A DNA stretch of 64,000 nt from a marine bacterium B5-7 (GTDB taxonomy: Bacteria > Pseudomonadota > Gammaproteobacteria > Arenicellales > CAJQKF01), in NCBI GenBank assembly GCA_021604525.1, contig BQJD01000001.1, positions 186,001 through 250,000 of the forward strand. The letters run 5' to 3'. Shown here in pieces: positions 2,712 through 39,827 of the stretch; positions within the stretch are counted from its first letter, which is position 1; each line of letters begins with the position of its first letter. The notes below the pieces were generated by a model. That model searched no databases and was not told the origin of the DNA. It saw nothing but the letters and a program-made list of their open reading frames with translations. Position numbers and translations under genes: made by a program.

Positions 2712-3233
2712 ATGACCCAGAGCAAAGACCAGACCGAAAGTGCTGCAGACCAACGCGATGCCGGCGGCCCATCAATCCGAAGTGGCGGCAGCGATAGCAG
2801 CAAAAAGGCAGCTTCAATCGGCCCATCCATCACTATTCATGGTGATGTCACCGGTGAGGAAGATCTTATAGTTGCCGGCACCATCGAAGGCACGGTCAAC
2901 CTCAAGGAAAACAACCTGGTGGTCGACGAGAACGGCCACATCATGGCGAACATAACCGCACGTATAATCCGTGTCGATGGCGAAGTTAAAGGTGAACTTA
3001 GAGCAAGCGAGAAAGTTGTAATCAAGCCAACCGGTAACGTCAATGGCGATATCCGCTCACCTCGTGTCGTGCTGGAAGACGGTTCCCAGTTCAAGGGTTC
3101 AATCGATATGGAATCCGATAAATCAATGCTTGGATCGGATCGTGGACATCCGCCACGTCTACGTCCGACCTCACCGCGTCCGGTACGTCCAGGTCGGGAC
3201 AAACTGGACAGTACAGACAAGCTGACCAACTAG
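2712..3233 (+). CDS. bactofilin (polymer-forming cytoskeletal protein)
   Basis: Bactofilins form nucleotide-independent filaments at the membrane and position cell wall or envelope enzymes. The 173-residue protein has a polar, disordered N-terminus (about 40 residues rich in S, Q, D and G), a central right-handed beta-helix of the DUF583 type with the typical repeating pattern (ITIHGDVTG, LIVAGTIEGTVN, ARIIRVDGEVKGEL, VVIKPTGNVNGDI), and a basic proline-arginine tail (RPTSPRPVRPGR). The start could be ATG 2712 or the in-frame GTG at 2697 five codons earlier; neither has a strong ribosome binding site. The gene is followed by a terminator and stands alone. Confidence 0.88.
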   Translation: MTQSKDQTESAADQRDAGGPSIRSGGSDSSKKAASIGPSITIHGDVTGEEDLIVAGTIEGTVNLKENNLVVDENGHIMANITARIIRVDGEVKGELRASEKVVIKPTGNVNGDIRSPRVVLEDGSQFKGSIDMESDKSMLGSDRGHPPRLRPTSPRPVRPGRDKLDSTDKLTN

Positions 3234-3259
3234 GTTTGTCTCCAGACGCACTGTGAAAT

Positions 3260-3289
3260 AAAAATGCCGCCGTTTGAGGCGGCATTTTT
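3260..3289 (+). terminator. rho-independent terminator after the bactofilin gene
   Basis: AAATGCCGCC pairs with GGCGGCATTT around a GTTTGA loop, a 10-bp stem followed by T residues, 27 bases after the bactofilin stop codon. The A-rich left arm could also make it work for the minus strand. Confidence 0.88.
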
Positions 3290-3329
3290 ATCAAGCCTGC
3301 TTTTTAGATAGGTTCCAGTTATTCCCCGT

Positions 3330-3500
3330 CTAGTTGGCAACAGCCTGGCTAAGTACCAGCGTGACGACAACGAGGCTAAATGACGTTAATAAAGCAATAG
3401 CGACACTATAGACGACTAACCCTGCCCAATTCCGCCACGCCTCGGTCAACCGATTTTCACGTGACGATTTCCACAACGAGAGAATCAAATGTGCGTTCAC
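3330..3500 (-). CDS. 56-residue single-pass membrane protein, function unknown
   Basis: This small gene starts with GTG at 3500, and the GTG shares bases with the TGA stop of the gene upstream (GTGA overlap), the usual sign of translational coupling. The product has a short polar, basic N-terminal part (SLWKSSRENRLTEAWRNW) followed by one long hydrophobic segment (residues 27-51, GLVVYSVAIALLTSFSLV and on) and ends in VAN. That is the shape of a small inner-membrane protein with a cytoplasmic N-terminus. I do not recognise the family. The coupled arrangement with the 74-residue neighbour is the main support that both are genes. Confidence 0.55.
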   Translation of the reverse strand: MNAHLILSLWKSSRENRLTEAWRNWAGLVVYSVAIALLTSFSLVVVTLVLSQAVAN

Positions 3501-3721
3501 TTGAACTTCTCGTCTGACCGATGCGGCGAGTGACTCGTATCCATATTTCGATTTACAGGGATGCCGGGTAAGTTCATACCTCGATTGATAGTGACCGCAT
3601 CAGCAAGTGACATTCCCGGCCGGTACGGAACCAACGGGCCGGGTATTTTCTCCGGATGGTCGAACAATAATTCATCAGAAAGTGGGACAAAGATTGGTTT
3701 GTTCATGGCGGTAAGGGACAT
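3497..3721 (-). CDS. 74-residue conserved hypothetical protein
   Basis: The protein contains MNKPIFVPLSDELLF followed by a proline-rich stretch (PEKIPGPLVPYRPG). I recall short proteobacterial hypotheticals beginning with a similar KP-FVP-SDELLFEHPE sequence, but no function is known to me. The ATG at 3721 gives 74 residues; the internal ATG at 3706 matches the usual start of such proteins better and would give 69. Its stop overlaps the GTG of the small membrane protein downstream by four bases, so the two form a coupled pair. The gene is divergent from the response regulator gene at 3890. Confidence 0.6.
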   Translation of the reverse strand: MSLTAMNKPIFVPLSDELLFDHPEKIPGPLVPYRPGMSLADAVTINRGMNLPGIPVNRNMDTSHSPHRSDEKFK

Positions 3722-3889
3722 TCACTATAGTGAGAGGACTCGACGTCAACACTACAGCATGAGTTAATGCAATTACCCGGTGCAATTCGTGGTGAAAAGG
3801 TGGCAAGTTAACGGTATGTTGTGGTGTAACTCTTAAAGCGATGTAATCTCAGTTAAAATCCCGAGCCCCATAACAGAAAGCTGATTAAT

Positions 3890-4585
3890 ATGAGCCGTTC
3901 TATAGCCATTGTTGAAGATGATCGGGACCAGCGTGAGAATTATCGTGACGCCCTCCTGGCGCATAACTATGACGTGCAGCTATACAGTAATCGCAGTGAA
4001 GCCCTGCGTGCGTTTAACACGCGCCTGCCGGATCTGGCGATATTGGACATCATGCTCCAACATGAAATGGACGGTGGCTTTGATCTGTGTCGCGAGCTTC
4101 GATCAATGAGTCCTGACCTGCCGATCATATTCCTGACTGCACGTAACAGCGACATCGACCGTGTCTCGGGTCTTCGACTCGATGCCTGGGACTACCTGAC
4201 CAAGCCAGTTAATCTTGAGTTTCTGGTGGTTCGCGTTAATTCATTATTCCGCATTGCCGATACCCTTCATGCACCGGACGATACAACCGAAAAGCTCATT
4301 ATCGGGCCACTTGAGTTGAATCAGAGCACCATGTCGGTTCGCTGGAATGATGAACCGATAAGCCTCACCCTCACTGAATTCTGGTTGGTGGAAGCGCTTG
4401 CGCGACGCCCCGGTCATGTCAGAACCTACGATGGGTTAATGCAGGTCACTCGTCAAAGCTATGTCGAGAAGAACACGATCAATGGCTATATTCGAAGGAT
4501 CCGCAATAAATTCAAGCAGGTCGATCCATCATTCGGCATGATTGAAACGGTCTTTGGAATCGGTTACCGCTGGCAGCCCGACTGA
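3890..4585 (+). CDS. pdsR: OmpR-type response regulator, PdsR-like
   Basis: A 231-residue two-component response regulator. The receiver domain (1-120) has the acidic pair E9-D10, the phospho-acceptor D53 (LAILDIM) and K105 (YLTKPVN); the winged-helix DNA-binding domain follows (about 135-229, ending in the typical FGIGYRW). The sequence GGFDLCRELR-MSPDLPIIFLTAR-SD and LTLTEFWLVEALARRPGHV closely matches what I remember of PdsR, the response regulator of the proteobacterial dedicated sortase system. The kinase gene follows 13 bases downstream on the same strand. No sortase or sortase target lies in the window, so the regulated genes are not visible here. Confidence 0.85.
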   Translation: MSRSIAIVEDDRDQRENYRDALLAHNYDVQLYSNRSEALRAFNTRLPDLAILDIMLQHEMDGGFDLCRELRSMSPDLPIIFLTARNSDIDRVSGLRLDAWDYLTKPVNLEFLVVRVNSLFRIADTLHAPDDTTEKLIIGPLELNQSTMSVRWNDEPISLTLTEFWLVEALARRPGHVRTYDGLMQVTRQSYVEKNTINGYIRRIRNKFKQVDPSFGMIETVFGIGYRWQPD

Positions 4586-4598
4586 TCGGCGACGCTTG

Positions 4599-6791
4599 AT
4601 GGCCTGGTTGTTTCGAGATCAACGAAATTGGCGCTTTAGTCTTCGCACCAAGTTTCTGCTACTCGTACTGGCAATCCTCACCCTGCCCTGGATGGGCATA
4701 CGCTACGTTAATGACATGAAGCGCTTTTTGCTGCAGGGTCAGGAAGATGCACTGTTGTTGATGGCAAGAGCAGTCGCTACCGTATTAAATGATCGCGAAG
4801 AACTTTTCAGACCGGATACCGGCGTACCTGAGTTGATCGGCGGTCGTAACGACCTGTACGCGCATCAACTTCCAAACTATCTGCAACTCGATGGGGACTC
4901 AGCTGATTGGGGTGATCAACTTGATAACCTGCGTGACTTTACCGGCGCGCTTGGTGAAGAGTGCACGGCAGATTATCAACCACTAACCCTGTCGGTTCGG
5001 CATTTATTGGGTTATCGCGGCCAGTTTCTCTATGCACTGTTCGAAGTGGACGATGATAAGGTGCTGTATCGCGAAAACGATTTCAGGCGCCTGGATCACA
5101 GCGATCAGATTCGCATGTCCATCCAGAATCTGCCGGATGATATCAATCGCTACCTTCTGTTGACTCGTACGAGCGGAAGAATGAGTGTCTATCTAATGGA
5201 TGAGGACTGGCGCTATCCACTAACCGGCGAGTCGATAACCGATATTAATGCGGTTATGAAGGAAACAGAAAGCGGTTATACCGTTGAGATTCGTCTGCCA
5301 CGCTTTATGCTGCGCTCATCGTCACGGGTTGGATTTGAAATTGTTGATGTCGATGATCCCGAAACACGTACGATTCGTGATGTGATTACGACGTACCCGC
5401 GATCGGATAATCCGCAATTGAGCCGCGTCATGATTCACTCGCCTGAGCTCGCCAAGATACTCGGTGGGCTGAACCGCCAGGTTGCAAGGATATGGATCAT
5501 AGACGGAAAAAGACGGGTCAGGGCCGTCGTAGGCAGTCTCGGCGGGATTGTCAGTAATGCCCCGGACGGGAATGATTTCACCCGTTGGTTTTATGATATT
5601 ACCGATTCGTTCTTCAGTTGGATTCTGCAATTGCCTGAAGAAGAATTTACCGACGTTGAATCCAATGTCACTCACCGTTCGGATGTCATCATCGATAGCG
5701 CGCTAAATGGCGATACACAATCAACTCGCCGGATGTCAGTTGATAATCGATCGGAAATTCTGGCTGCGGCAACACCTATTAGAAGTAGTGATGGAGTGAT
5801 CGGTACGGTACTGGTAGAGCAAAGTTCTACTGAAGTGCTGAAATTACAGCGTCAGGCAATGAAGTCGATCGCAGTGGTTGCATTAGTCGCATTCGTGATC
5901 ATCACCTTGACCCTGTTTGCGTTTGCAACCCAATTGACGATCCGGATTCGCAAATTACACTATGCCACAGAGCATTCGATCACGCCTGAAGGTAGAGTTA
6001 GAAGTGAATACAATGAAGCATTCCCACGCGGTGGGCGTGACGAAATTGGTGATCTTTCCAAAAGTATTACCAGCATGCTTGGTCGATTGAGTCAGTACAC
6101 AAAATACCTGGAAGCCATGCCGGACACTTTGGCCCATGAGTTAAACAATCCGCTTAATGTTGTGTCTTCTTCACTTGAAATTCTTTGTCGGGATTCTAGT
6201 GAAGCCGCAGACAGTCCCTACATGGTGCGGGCGCGTAAAGGTCTGGTCAGACTACGTTCGATCCTTACCAGCCTGACAGAGGCGGCTAATCTCGAAGAAG
6301 CTCTTCAGTACGAAGATCTGGAAAATTTTGATTTATGTGAAGTGGTTGAAGGGTGTGTCGAAGGTTATCGGATCAGCTTTCCTGATCACAGATTTATCCT
6401 TAACAGGAAGGCAATGAGACTTCCTGTAGCCGGTGCGCCGGATCGATTCGCACAACTACTCGACAAATTGATAGATAACTCGGTGGACTTTGGAGAGCCG
6501 AATGGCTCCATTGAACTTTCGCTTGCGGAAACGGGTAACTTTGCTGTGATGACAGTCAGCAATCAGGGTTCCAGCCTGCCTGTCGACATGAAAGAACGGT
6601 TATTCGATCCCATGGTTTCTGTCGGTCGCAAAGATGCCACACAAGCACATCTTGGACTTGGCCTTTTCATCGCACGATTGATTGCAGAGCATCATCATGG
6701 TGACATAACTGCCAGTAATATCGAAGAACCTGCCGGTGTATGCTTCACTGTACGCCTGCCACTACGGGCTAACGCCGGCATATCTGCATAG
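4599..6791 (+). CDS. pdsS: membrane sensor histidine kinase, PdsS-like
   Basis: Partner kinase of the adjacent response regulator. From ATG 4599 (730 residues) it has a first membrane segment near residues 15-30 (KFLLLVLAILTLPWMG), a large periplasmic sensor region of about 370 residues, a second membrane segment (SIAVVALVAFVIITLTLFAF), a HAMP-like linker, a dimerisation helix with phospho-acceptor H513 in TLAHELNNPLNVV, and an HATPase domain with the N-box DKLIDNSVDF and glycine box LGLGLFIARL. The opening FLLQGQEDALLLMARAVATVL resembles kinases of the dedicated sortase system. An upstream in-frame ATG at 4542 would overlap the regulator gene and is less likely. Confidence 0.85.
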   Translation: MAWLFRDQRNWRFSLRTKFLLLVLAILTLPWMGIRYVNDMKRFLLQGQEDALLLMARAVATVLNDREELFRPDTGVPELIGGRNDLYAHQLPNYLQLDGDSADWGDQLDNLRDFTGALGEECTADYQPLTLSVRHLLGYRGQFLYALFEVDDDKVLYRENDFRRLDHSDQIRMSIQNLPDDINRYLLLTRTSGRMSVYLMDEDWRYPLTGESITDINAVMKETESGYTVEIRLPRFMLRSSSRVGFEIVDVDDPETRTIRDVITTYPRSDNPQLSRVMIHSPELAKILGGLNRQVARIWIIDGKRRVRAVVGSLGGIVSNAPDGNDFTRWFYDITDSFFSWILQLPEEEFTDVESNVTHRSDVIIDSALNGDTQSTRRMSVDNRSEILAAATPIRSSDGVIGTVLVEQSSTEVLKLQRQAMKSIAVVALVAFVIITLTLFAFATQLTIRIRKLHYATEHSITPEGRVRSEYNEAFPRGGRDEIGDLSKSITSMLGRLSQYTKYLEAMPDTLAHELNNPLNVVSSSLEILCRDSSEAADSPYMVRARKGLVRLRSILTSLTEAANLEEALQYEDLENFDLCEVVEGCVEGYRISFPDHRFILNRKAMRLPVAGAPDRFAQLLDKLIDNSVDFGEPNGSIELSLAETGNFAVMTVSNQGSSLPVDMKERLFDPMVSVGRKDATQAHLGLGLFIARLIAEHHHGDITASNIEEPAGVCFTVRLPLRANAGISA

Positions 6792-6832
6792 GCGGTATCC
6801 TTGATCGTCGAGTTCTGCTTTTAGATCAGTTC

Positions 6833-7123
6833 TTAAACAAAGAACTGTTGAGTAATCTCAAATACACTGTCTTTCAACTCATGTTGTTCCACATTGATAA
6901 CATCAATGAGTTTTTCTGTTTGTTTTATCAGTTGTGGCAAGCGTTCTTCTTCGTTCACCAATAACCACATGCGGCTACGATTCGGAGGGTTCCCGGCAAT
7001 CGGCCTGACCATCACACCTTCGAGATTGTAGGATCGACGGGCGAACAGCCCGCAAACGTGGGACAACACGCCGGGATGATTATTAACCGTCAGCTTTAAC
7101 ACGGACAACCTGTCATGACTCAT
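6833..7123 (-). CDS. ilvN: acetolactate synthase I, small regulatory subunit
   Basis: The 96-residue ACT-domain protein is the length of E. coli IlvN and shares NHPGV-(S/T)HVCGLFARR and WLLVNEEERLPQ. In the family this subunit binds valine and confers feedback inhibition on the catalytic subunit in branched-chain amino acid synthesis. Its ATG overlaps the TGA of ilvB by four bases (ATGA), so the two are translationally coupled. It is the last gene of the leader-ilvB-ilvN operon and ends tail to tail with the kinase gene. Confidence 0.93.
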   Translation of the reverse strand: MSHDRLSVLKLTVNNHPGVLSHVCGLFARRSYNLEGVMVRPIAGNPPNRSRMWLLVNEEERLPQLIKQTEKLIDVINVEQHELKDSVFEITQQFFV

Positions 7124-36837: not shown

Positions 36838-36845
36838 AATTACCC
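36838..36845. repeat. target site duplication, left copy (AATTACCC)
   Basis: The 8 bases directly outside the left inverted repeat are AATTACCC and match exactly those outside the right one at 39820-39827. Confidence 0.9.
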
Positions 36846-36864
36846 GGTAGTGTCTTAGTTTGAA
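36846..36864 (+). repeat. left terminal inverted repeat of the element
   Basis: GGTAGTGTCTTAGTTTGAA, one mismatch to the right repeat. The stop codon of the transposase gene (36855-36857) lies inside it. Confidence 0.9.
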
Positions 36865-37736
36865 TTCTTCTTTTTATACTGCCGAGGTCGCTTCGGTGCC
36901 GAAGCCTTCATGTCGATTAGTTCTAATATCCACGAAATATCTCGAAGCCCTTCCACCAAACCAGCTTCCATTGCTGGCGTCACTCGCAACGACTTGTGAA
37001 TCCGACAGAAGTTATAGTGAACGAAGTAAAGCGACAACATATGGACATGATTGTCTATCTTCTTGCTGAATGCGTTGGTCAAACGGGTGAACCGACGCAT
37101 TGACATGCGCATGGTCAGATTTTGCCGTTCGACGTAACTAGTCGAAATATGATCCGGGTCTGGATTGCCGCTGATCAACTCCCGTTTCGTGCCAATACAG
37201 TCTGCTGGACTATATCGCAACTGCTCAGGCTTCGGTGCGTCACCGTATATTTTAATCAACTGGGCGTAGTCAACATCGCGCCCAAAAGCGTTTTCAACGG
37301 CATCCAGGTAGACGCGGTGTCCATCGGTGGTTAATTGGCAGCGATTAGCGAGACGATCTGAAACGTCCTGCATGAACTCGTTGGCATATCCAGCATCCCG
37401 GCCGCCCACGAGATATGAAATGATCAGCTTGCTTTCAGCACCAATTGCGGTCCACGTCCAAACGTCGCCAGCGCCTTCTGGCGCAGCTTTAGCTGAATCG
37501 ACATTCTTGTGTTTGGCGTAGCAGAACGACCAGATTTCGTCGCACTGCACTCGGCGAGATTCGACCTCTCGGACTGCCTTATTGTGGTATTCCGCGCATG
37601 CTTCGCCCGCATCCACCAACAACTTGGTTACCGTATTGATGGACACGCCAGCGATACGACTGATGGAACGCATGGAACTGCCTTCCAACAGCATGTTTAG
37701 AATCAGGCACCGCTTTTCGTGGGACAGCTTGTTCAT
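36855..37736 (-). CDS. IS1-type DDE transposase
   Basis: A 293-residue transposase from ATG 37736. The N-terminal helix-turn-helix reads LLEGSSMRSISRIAGVSINTVTKLL. The catalytic region has the first acidic site at CDEIWSFCYAKHKN, the second at TDGHRVYLDAVENAFG, and the third at STSYVERQNLTMRMSMRRF, followed by YFVHYNFCRIHKSLRVTPAM. It matches what I recall of single-frame IS1-family transposases common in alphaproteobacteria. There is no frameshift as in classical IS1. It follows the 69-residue gene by 45 bases and may be read from the cargo promoter. It appears intact. Confidence 0.92.
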   Translation of the reverse strand: MNKLSHEKRCLILNMLLEGSSMRSISRIAGVSINTVTKLLVDAGEACAEYHNKAVREVESRRVQCDEIWSFCYAKHKNVDSAKAAPEGAGDVWTWTAIGAESKLIISYLVGGRDAGYANEFMQDVSDRLANRCQLTTDGHRVYLDAVENAFGRDVDYAQLIKIYGDAPKPEQLRYSPADCIGTKRELISGNPDPDHISTSYVERQNLTMRMSMRRFTRLTNAFSKKIDNHVHMLSLYFVHYNFCRIHKSLRVTPAMEAGLVEGLRDISWILELIDMKASAPKRPRQYKKKNSN

Positions 37737-37781
37737 GCCCCGAATCATACCGAATAAAATGCTTAATATCAAGCATTATTT

Positions 37782-37991
37782 TCATTTCGAAACCCATTGA
37801 TGTGCTCGACTACCCCTGCCATATGGAAATGGTATCGGCTCATCAGGCACATCGTTGTCGGGCAATGACTCAATGAAGTCTAACCCGCCCATTCCCTTTT
37901 TCTCGGCATCCTGTGTAAGGCGATCAAGCAGGTCGCTAAACTGATTAGCGCCTTCACTACGACGCCCATGTTGTCGCTTAACGTCGTTCAT
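37782..37991 (-). CDS. 69-residue passenger protein, function unknown
   Basis: A small, charged protein (MNDVKRQHGRRSEGANQFSD start; then a helix LLDRLTQDAEKKG and a proline-rich acidic tail DNDVPDEPIPFPYGRG). I do not recognise it. Its ATG overlaps the stop of the protease gene by four bases, so it is translationally coupled to the protease and may be its partner or regulator. It lies 45 bases before the transposase gene. Confidence 0.65.
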   Translation of the reverse strand: MNDVKRQHGRRSEGANQFSDLLDRLTQDAEKKGMGGLDFIESLPDNDVPDEPIPFPYGRGSRAHQWVSK

Positions 37992-38908
37992 AACACTTGC
38001 CTCATACCACTTTGACCTTTAGTGTGAATAAAACCTCGATAACCCATCTTTCTTGCGAAATCCACTGCCAATCCATGATAATTGCGAATATGCTCGTTGA
38101 CTTCCGGATCTTGTCCAAAATCATCTATCAGAAGATCAATATCACTGGCTTCCAATTCTCGCATGGATATTCCCCGACCATGCGAATGCCAGCGATCAGC
38201 CTTTCCGAGCATTCTAGCGACTTGTTTGGCTCTATCTCGTCGCATCGCGGCTGTGACACGCCTCTTTCTCGTTCTAGTTGTTTTCCAATTTTTAAACTTA
38301 TACTTCGGCAACCACTCCATTACTAAAGACTGACCATGCTCAATTGCCTGTTCAATATGGAACAATTTCGCTGGATCAAAACGCTTAATTAAAAATGCAA
38401 GTTCCGCCTTTGTAGCATTTGGTAACTGTGATCTCGAACTGTTAATTCGTTTCGTAAGTTCTTCAAATTTAGCTAAATACCCAGCGCCGGGTAATAGTTG
38501 TCCATCCTCATCCTGATACTGAGGGTCGATTGGACCTAGGACAGAATAATAATCCATAAAAATTTTATCTCCCGAAAGAACTAGCACAGTTCCCGCAGAG
38601 TAGGCGTGACCGGGAACCACGAAATATACCTCCCTGTAATGTTTTCTCATTACTGACACCATTCTTTCAACGACTTCGATATAACCGCCGTTTGTCTCCA
38701 AAATCACAATTAACCGATGTTTTAAACCATCCTCACTATCATTGTCTTGGGACACCATATCTTCAATAACGACGCGTAATTCGTCGTCAAGTGGCGATTG
38801 GATTCCACACCAAATAAACATACAATCGCCTTCTAAAGCACTGCCAACTTTTTCGTTCATGTCGGACAAGACGATGCTGACTAAGTGATTGGCATTAATC
38901 GCCTCCAC
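37988..38908 (-). CDS. SDH-type Clp-fold serine protease, passenger gene
   Basis: About 306 residues from GTG 38908, which has AGGAGG just upstream. It matches the serine dehydrogenase proteinase group of Clp/S49-like peptidases: LIVILETNGGYIEVVERMV (oxyanion strand), the nucleophile segment VPGHAYSAGTVLVLSGD, then DYYSVLGPIDPQ. The C-terminal half has WHSHGRGISMREL, typical of the group. There is no signal peptide or membrane helix, so it is probably cytoplasmic. A longer frame to 38977 overlaps the upstream gene. It is coupled to the 69-residue gene. Why a transposable element carries it is unknown. Confidence 0.82.
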   Translation of the reverse strand: MEAINANHLVSIVLSDMNEKVGSALEGDCMFIWCGIQSPLDDELRVVIEDMVSQDNDSEDGLKHRLIVILETNGGYIEVVERMVSVMRKHYREVYFVVPGHAYSAGTVLVLSGDKIFMDYYSVLGPIDPQYQDEDGQLLPGAGYLAKFEELTKRINSSRSQLPNATKAELAFLIKRFDPAKLFHIEQAIEHGQSLVMEWLPKYKFKNWKTTRTRKRRVTAAMRRDRAKQVARMLGKADRWHSHGRGISMRELEASDIDLLIDDFGQDPEVNEHIRNYHGLAVDFARKMGYRGFIHTKGQSGMRQVL

Positions 38909-38927
38909 GGCACCTCCTGGATTCCCA

Positions 38928-39155
38928 CTAACTTTTTTTCGATCTAGACCATCTAGCAGCCGCCGCTCTACGAGCAATCTCAGATCTTTCCCCGGCCGTT
39001 AGTGAGGACGCACGAGCGCGACCGCCAGCCTTTCCAGACTTCACGCGGTTGCTCTTGGGATTATCTTCAATTTCGCCAGTGGCAATTTTTGCTACCATGA
39101 CGGCAGCACCGATTAAATCCGCTGGCCGGGTTTCCCCGTTTGGACCTTTCGGCAT
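38928..39155 (-). CDS. 75-residue basic passenger protein
   Basis: Small basic protein. The first part has PADLIGAAVMVAKIATGEI, the second a KSGKAGGRARASSLTAGERSEIA stretch ending RRAAAARW; I recall this GKAGGRAR-LT-ER-EIARKAA pattern in small proteins next to mobile genes, possibly nucleic-acid binding. A perfect AGGAGGG ribosome binding site stands seven bases before the ATG at 39155. It is the first gene of the minus-strand cargo operon that runs into the protease, the 69-residue gene and the transposase. Confidence 0.75.
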   Translation of the reverse strand: MPKGPNGETRPADLIGAAVMVAKIATGEIEDNPKSNRVKSGKAGGRARASSLTAGERSEIARRAAAARWSRSKKS

Positions 39156-39372
39156 AAGTAACCCTCCTAACCTGATCCAGGATCAATACAAGTATGCGGA
39201 TTCGTATCAACCGAATCAAGCTAACTTTACTTTTCTGTCGCCACGAAAAGGTGATTCTAGAGATCGTGAAATTAATTTCAAAACGACGAAAAACAACTCG
39301 TAAGAGCATGATTTCTTATCCACATTTTTCGTATGTTATCATGCAAAGTCCATCCACACAGGAGAAGCGACC
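39156..39372. promoter_or_regulatory. divergent promoter region inside the element
   Basis: A 217-base AT-rich spacer between the 75-residue gene (leftward) and the 53-residue gene (rightward). A TATCAT -10-like hexamer at about 39345 would suit the rightward gene. No operator was identified. Confidence 0.35.
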
Positions 39373-39534
39373 ATGCCTAAAAAGTCGCCCTGGCACTCGA
39401 TTAAACAATCAGTGCACCATAATAATACAAACTGCAACACGGGAAACAACATCGAAAAGGAAAACCTCCGAACTGGCGCCGGTGGTAAACCGCTTTGCCA
39501 AGAGTGCGAGAAACTCAGCCAACAGGGTCGATAA
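39373..39534 (+). CDS. 53-residue passenger protein with CxxC motif
   Basis: Small protein starting MPKKSPWHSIKQSVHHNNT, with NNIEKENLRTGAGGKPLC and a CQEC pair near the end, suggesting a metal-binding knuckle with an upstream Cys/His. I recall near-identical short hypotheticals near mobile elements. GGAG lies nine bases before the ATG. It is the only cargo gene on the plus strand, and its last 20 bases overlap the end of the 94-residue gene tail to tail. Too short for most gene finders, but the conserved sequence and ribosome binding site support it. Confidence 0.7.
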   Translation: MPKKSPWHSIKQSVHHNNTNCNTGNNIEKENLRTGAGGKPLCQECEKLSQQGR

Positions 39535-39799
39535 ACGTTAGTTCCCAAAACGGTCCGGTAGGCTCCAAATCAATTACGGACCAAACTCGCCGTAGTGCAG
39601 CAACTGGAAGTCCATGCACCTGCGCTGCGGCGAGTGCTCTAAGCCCCTCAGACTTTCCTCCATGGAATCGAACGGTCGGTTCCAGAAAAGAATGACCCTT
39701 CCCGCCTTGGCATGACTCATAAGTCTCCACGCCAGCCTCACGAAGCACGATAACTGCCCGGACGATTCCCGCGTCTAGCGGTGGATCAAAGTCACCCAT
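39515..39799 (-). CDS. 94-residue passenger protein, conserved hypothetical
   Basis: The protein begins MGDFDPPLDAGIVRAV and contains VETYESCQGGKGHSFLEPTV, RALRRVW-like ALRRVWSVIDLEP and GPFWELTF. I recall conserved hypotheticals with the ESCEGG-GHAYPEPTVRFHG signature in alphaproteobacteria, of unknown function. The ATG at 39799 is directly at the inner edge of the right inverted repeat, so its promoter must be in or beyond the repeat. A TTG two codons earlier lies inside the repeat. Confidence 0.75.
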   Translation of the reverse strand: MGDFDPPLDAGIVRAVIVLREAGVETYESCQGGKGHSFLEPTVRFHGGKSEGLRALAAAQVHGLPVAALRRVWSVIDLEPTGPFWELTFIDPVG

Positions 39800-39800
39800 T

Positions 39801-39819
39801 TTCAAACTGAGACACTACC
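39801..39819 (-). repeat. right terminal inverted repeat of the element
   Basis: Read inward on the minus strand, GGTAGTGTCTCAGTTTGAA, 18 of 19 identical to the left repeat. Confidence 0.9.
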
Positions 39820-39827
39820 AATTACCC
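39820..39827. repeat. target site duplication, right copy (AATTACCC)
   Basis: Exact copy of 36838-36845. It contains the TAA stop codon of comEC (39822-39824, minus strand), so the gene end was preserved by the duplication. Confidence 0.9.

Follow-up and report, generated by a model that had tools for sequence, protein, structure and literature searches.

Among the closest described systems, RosmerTA (RmrT/RmrA) is an experimentally tested phage defence system of toxin-antitoxin (TA) type in which the peptidase-domain protein is the antitoxin (PMC10440598), and PD-lambda-2 is another experimentally tested TA-type phage defence system (PMC9519451). We analyzed a 64-kb stretch of contig BQJD01000001.1 from the marine bacterium B5-7 (the window, at its full length), in which a Clp-fold serine protease gene and a very short partner gene are carried together by an IS1-like transposon. 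Like RosmerTA and PD-Lambda-2, this pair has the look of a two-gene TA module with a peptidase-domain component and occupies the same slot of the same transposon family. In those systems, however, the peptidase is of the XRE-ImmA/IrrE (M78) type, whereas here it is a Clp-fold serine protease with a partner of only 50–75 amino acids (aa); a Pfam search found no M78 domain, a trait of the RosmerTA antitoxin, in either protein. Short, co-directional, overlapping genes that co-occur are also what the pair has in common with type II TA systems. The open reading frames (ORFs) of the locus, read from the window, are as follows.

37988-38908, minus strand: gene of the Clp-fold serine protease (GTG start, 306 aa, PF01972)
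Protease residues 103-107: nucleophile segment YSAGT, from the ORF translation
37782-37991, minus strand: small partner gene, 69 aa, with a conserved IPFPYG...W motif near the C-terminus
37988-37991, minus strand: ATGA stop-start overlap of the protease and 69-aa genes, the 69-aa ORF starting within the protease stop
38928-39155, minus strand: gene of a basic 75-aa protein (pI 11.3), 19 bp upstream of the protease

These frames and coordinates, the YSAGT segment, the four-base overlap and the basic upstream protein are as the original prediction gave them. It had also suggested that the three genes are a functional unit, which holds for the protease and the 69-residue protein and fails for the 75-residue protein, as described below.

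To assess the pairing, relatives of the protease were sought in the genomes of 84,980 species (311 found) and in viral contigs (90), and the best 80 of each were examined. A pair was scored when a same-strand ORF of 48–85 aa started between -25 and +60 bp from the protease stop, and 153 proteases had enough sequence. This positional test was used because the small partners are too diverged for one profile: a single hidden Markov model (HMM) for all of them recovered only 49/79 and 7/76, and a small-partner profile without any match in 398 genomes of the phylum missed even the window copy. A downstream small ORF was present in 149 of the 153 relatives, counts that related sequences inflate, versus 24–25% of control genes from the same loci. 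The commonest spacing was the -4 overlap seen in the window (28 loci). Far from being rarely found together outside the element, the two genes thus co-occur in a set that spans Proteobacteria, Acidobacteria, Planctomycetes, Chloroflexi, Patescibacteria, Bacteroidota, Firmicutes and phages, and the protease tree intermingles these phyla. The genome of the window itself contains one copy of the protease. Pairwise dN/dS values of 0.03–0.07 for the proteases and 0.10–0.31 for the small genes denote purifying selection on both. Neither of the two results that the original prediction had named as refuting it, rare co-occurrence and small frames free of purifying selection, was obtained. The protease and the small protein form a real, conserved and mobile unit.

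The 69-aa protein is acidic and highly charged (pI 5.5), and neither it nor the 75-aa ORF was assigned to a family by the libraries searched, Pfam among them. Although the small proteins diverge fast, they have a common layout of N-terminal helices followed by [YF]-x-L-x2-P-[FY] near the C-terminus. Partners borne by transposons and by E. coli prophages have L-x3-G...[YF]-x-L in common, and the clade of the window (n=11) carries (I)PFPYG...W with Pro56, Tyr57 and Trp66 invariant. When the protease and small genes were modelled as one chain by reading through the stop, the small protein appeared as two helices and a disordered tail.

The distribution of the two genes is asymmetric. The protease is present in 17 of 5,426 complete E. 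coli genomes, all 17 with the small gene, and two further genomes have the small gene alone behind the prophage repressor gene cI. An example of such an orphan is the E. coli prophage locus L207 (3179-4184), in which the small gene directly follows cI and no protease is present. At locus L052 (6001-8115), the pair is followed by two tandem repeats of ~500 bp, 91% identical, each with an intact small gene and only a C-terminal fragment of the protease. A small protein that protects or limits would account for this asymmetry, but the cases are few and several of the split proteases could stem from assembly errors. The opposite assignment, in which the small protein would be the toxin and the protease an antitoxin degrading it, has a precedent in RosmerTA, whose antitoxin is its peptidase-domain protein (PMC10440598). 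We consider it very unlikely, as the small protein has no hydrophobic segment, small genes occur without the protease in the two E. coli prophages and in extra copies at L052, and the protease is almost never found without the small gene.

The original prediction had described the protease as cytoplasmic and of the SDH-type Clp fold, and both are fair descriptions. Its maximum 19-residue mean hydropathy is 1.29, with no strongly hydrophobic stretch. It matches PF01972 (SDH_protease) over residues 68-132 with 43.8 bits, above the gathering cut-off of 31.3, while its score against NF047768 (SDH family Clp fold serine proteinase, an equivalog) is 53.1 bits, far under the 250-bit cut-off, and that against PF00574 (ClpP / peptidase S14) is 19.0 bits, under the gathering score of 20.2. 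An AlphaFold2 model built from 62 relatives (pLDDT 94, pTM 0.92) adopts the ClpP (Clp/crotonase) fold, with a Foldseek probability of 1.00 and a VIA-align Z of 13.9 (rmsd 4.3, 184 residues aligned). With the SDH-type proteases (PF01972, NF047768) it shares the Clp fold and the G-G and A-x-S-A-G-T motifs; the family matches span only residues 67-132, however, and the window protease differs in that its helical C-terminal part is longer and it has a small partner of its own.

Gly74, Gly75, Ser104, Ala105, Thr107, Gly125, Pro126 and Asp128 are invariant in all 165 proteases, and His243 is kept in 164 of them. These residues suggest a putative catalytic triad Ser104-His243-Asp128, in the sequence order S-D-H. 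Since Asp128 lies 24 residues past the serine, about where ClpP has its catalytic histidine (25 past its own serine), the order would differ from that of ClpP, and the conserved histidine of the window protease, His243, lies in the C-terminal part. The likeness to ClpP is one of fold, and no AAA+ partner gene was seen beside the window protease. Lys204 was considered as the general base of an SppA-like dyad and rejected, being lost in distant relatives among the 165 proteases. The protease weakly resembles NF045542 (head maturation ClpP-related), at 8e-6 and under the cut-off, and some of its distant relatives lie among phage late genes. It could on these grounds be the relic of a phage protease for head maturation, accompanied by a scaffold-type partner and having no function of its own. 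This explanation is disfavoured and seems highly improbable to us, because the core relatives sit in immunity regions, chromosomes and transposons rather than beside capsid genes, and both genes are under strong purifying selection. Among such phage loci, a protease relative in Porphyromonas phages (L209, 1744-3771) adjoins a HicA/HicB pair between head-tail genes.

The notion that the protease travels as cargo was correct, the element being an intact IS1-like transposon of 2,974 bp (36846-39819) with terminal inverted repeats (TIRs) and a target-site duplication (TSD). Its remaining features are listed here.

36838-36845, no strand: TSD, left copy AATTACCC, identical to 39820-39827
36846-36864, plus strand: left TIR GGTAGTGTCTTAGTTTGAA, 18/19 complementary to 39801-39819; sister elements have the same TIR
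36855-37772, minus strand: IS1-like transposase, likely start the ATG at ORF residue 13
39373-39534, plus strand: ORF of 53 aa, a doubtful gene without match
39515-39799, minus strand: ORF of 94 aa, outermost in the element; additional cargo found only in the window copy, without family match
39801-39819, plus strand: right TIR TTCAAACTGAGACACTACC, from inverted-repeat comparison
39820-39827, no strand: TSD, right copy AATTACCC, overlapping the comEC stop codon

The TSD is a perfect 8 bp. The transposase scores 24.5 bits against PF03400, just above the cut-off of 24.1, and 68.1 bits (E 9e-19) against NF033558, below the cut-off of 100 bits; its stop codon lies inside the left TIR, as in the sister elements. 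The transposon separates comEC from an exbB/tolQ-like gene. Two congeneric genomes and one further genome of the family have only ~120–140 bp between these genes, so the site is empty there, as judged by gene spacing, the joined flanks being too diverged for blast. TIRs together with an 8-bp TSD were identified in 11 sister elements. The smallest member of the family (locus L264, 4557-5921; 1,365 bp, TSD CACTGGCA) contains only the 75-aa gene and the transposase, and from this cargo-free anatomy and the varying cargo of the others passenger genes are probably unnecessary for transposition. The family resembles the transporter IS (tIS) of the IS1 family in its IS1-like DDE transposase, GGTAGTG-type TIRs, 8-bp duplication and passenger genes, and differs in having the 75-aa basic protein as its hallmark and TA/defence-like cargo that is interchangeable, a combination of which no description was found in the searched literature. 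The 53-aa and 94-aa ORFs are both absent from the sister elements. A 23-nt inverted repeat (21/23) between 37018-37040, in the 3' part of the transposase gene, and 37968-37990, at the start of the small gene, was considered as an antisense element and rejected, since the sister elements do not keep it.

The 75-aa protein carries the signature GG-x-ARA-x2-L-...-R-x-EIARxAAxxRW, and one homologue is annotated as 'histone H1'. Of 398 genomes from the phylum, 19 contain a match to its profile and only 2 contain the protease, and the same IS1-like transposase lies beside its best matches. Conversely, at loci selected by their transposase, the 75-aa gene is found upstream in 8/9 other genomes, 4/4 plasmid loci and 12/21 viral loci, and in 34 of 46 pooled transposase loci. 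A place for it as third member of the protease unit was therefore rejected, since it also accompanies the transposase where the cargo is different and occurs in more genomes than the protease. It is instead the hallmark of the transposon family.

In sister elements the region between the 75-aa gene and the transposase constitutes a cargo slot whose content is exchanged. The protease and small partner occupy it in the window and at L045, L055, L060, L063 and L072. Elsewhere it holds RmrT/RmrA (L280; PADLOC 1e-97 / 3e-191, no TIRs detected at this locus), a PD-Lambda-2_B homologue (2e-40) with a 161-aa gene (L238, with similar layouts at L263, L282 and L283), XRE-M78 with a 222-aa gene (L239), HipA_2 with DUF3037 (L236), Panacea with a 334-aa gene (L268) or Fic (L256). 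No family match was obtained for five cargo proteins of other sister elements (L233, L234, L237, L259, L269), and because of these the label 'defence-type' cannot be claimed for every element. An Acidiphilium plasmid element (L281, 2267-4900; TSD AAGCCGAG) carries genes for a distant SDH-type protease and a 68-aa protein, both in the orientation opposite to that of the transposase. At L235 (2780-4223), the cargo comprises the gene of a 421-aa protein that has no match in Pfam and, behind it, a 65-aa gene, possibly a second pair of an enzyme and a small partner, the start of the larger protein being Ntn-hydrolase/proteasome-like by eye. The transposon-borne proteases are dispersed across the protease tree, and this scatter implies either repeated capture by transposons or frequent loss.

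The pair is also found in other genomic settings. In prophages, a Peptidase_S24 (CI-type) repressor gene lies immediately upstream on the same strand in 21 of 38 viral loci, and the E. coli prophages show the order cI-protease-small or cI-membrane ORF-protease-small. The place right behind cI is that of rexAB in lambda; as for rexAB, two genes that follow cI directly in a lambdoid prophage are expected to be expressed in the lysogen, but the proteins are unrelated and the likeness is one of position alone. On Rhizobium plasmids the genes for multiubiquitin, ThiF, DUF6527, protease and small protein form one run; at these loci (L031-L033, about 3000-7100) ThiF is E1-like and the protease frame is broken in 2/3 records. 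The pair is also present on Methylosinus and Leptospira plasmids, and some chromosomal copies have no visible mobile element.

These settings bear on two further explanations. The protease could serve the mobile element or prophage as a regulatory enzyme, for instance one that cuts a repressor or controls transposition, with the small protein as its adaptor or activator. The vicinity of cI in prophages, the stronger constraint on the protease and the fact that Clp-type proteases often work with small adaptors speak for this. We nevertheless regard it as rather unlikely, as the pair occurs in unrelated settings without a common regulator (transposons, Rhizobium multiubiquitin/E1 operons, housekeeping neighbourhoods, phage immunity regions) and other cargo of the same slot is TA/defence-like. 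Alternatively, the same protease-inhibitor chemistry might serve element retention rather than phage defence, as a pure addiction or stability module, in line with the presence of the pair on small transposons, plasmids and prophages and with its patchy phylogeny in which phyla are mixed. This we judge unlikely, since much of the other slot cargo comes from families with tested phage defence, and expression with CI in lysogens, as the position would imply, suits the exclusion of other phages.

Since known anti-virus or TA modules fill the same slot in sister elements, the pair probably represents a module of TA or defence type that has so far gone unrecognised. In our preferred reading, to which we give about an even chance, it is a two-gene TA/abortive-infection type module on a cargo-bearing IS1-like transposon. 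The protease would be the effector of this module, and the small protein would be dedicated to inhibiting it or, with lower probability, serve as an obligatory cofactor. Translational coupling would supply both proteins continuously and in a fixed ratio, and the small protein would bind the protease through its conserved C-terminal Y-x-L-x2-P-[FY] / PFPYG...W motif. Loss or displacement of the partner, for example upon phage infection or loss of the element, would free the protease, which would then cut a target of the host or phage and bring growth to a halt. Indirect support for a defence or stability role comes from the swapping of cargo with RosmerTA and with PD-Lambda-2-like, HipA-like, Panacea and Fic modules and from the prophage place behind cI. 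The case for a TA/defence-type role is circumstantial, though stronger than could be known when the original prediction was made.

Several observations weigh against this module reading. PADLOC-DB 2.0.0 gave no match for the protease, and for the small protein only one to a candidate model at E 0.01. Constraint is weaker on the small gene than on the protease, and orphan small genes are few. In the read-through model the conserved motif is disordered (pLDDT <50); docking is not predicted, although the model speaks neither for it nor against it. Defence-island enrichment, a check named in the original prediction, was not seen: the 143 neighbours of chromosomal copies belong to mixed housekeeping families, with few defence matches. 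Apart from these points, literature searches on the protease pair, on multiubiquitin-protease operons and on IS1 cargo found nothing relevant. The wider proposal, that the pair is an unrecognised and very widespread anti-phage/TA system whose triad is ordered Ser-Asp-His and which is spread by IS1-like vehicles with an interchangeable TA/defence slot and by prophages in whose cI operon it lies, is put forward tentatively, its chances in our estimate falling a little short of even.

The pair nonetheless offers a concrete, testable two-gene candidate, one that occurs across many phyla as well as in E. coli prophages and is described by neither PADLOC nor the searched papers. Its carriers suggest that very small transposons (about 2.4–3 kb) each carry one defence-type module, in a slot whose content can be exchanged. 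If this were true, such vehicles would help to explain the scatter of defence-type modules outside defence islands.
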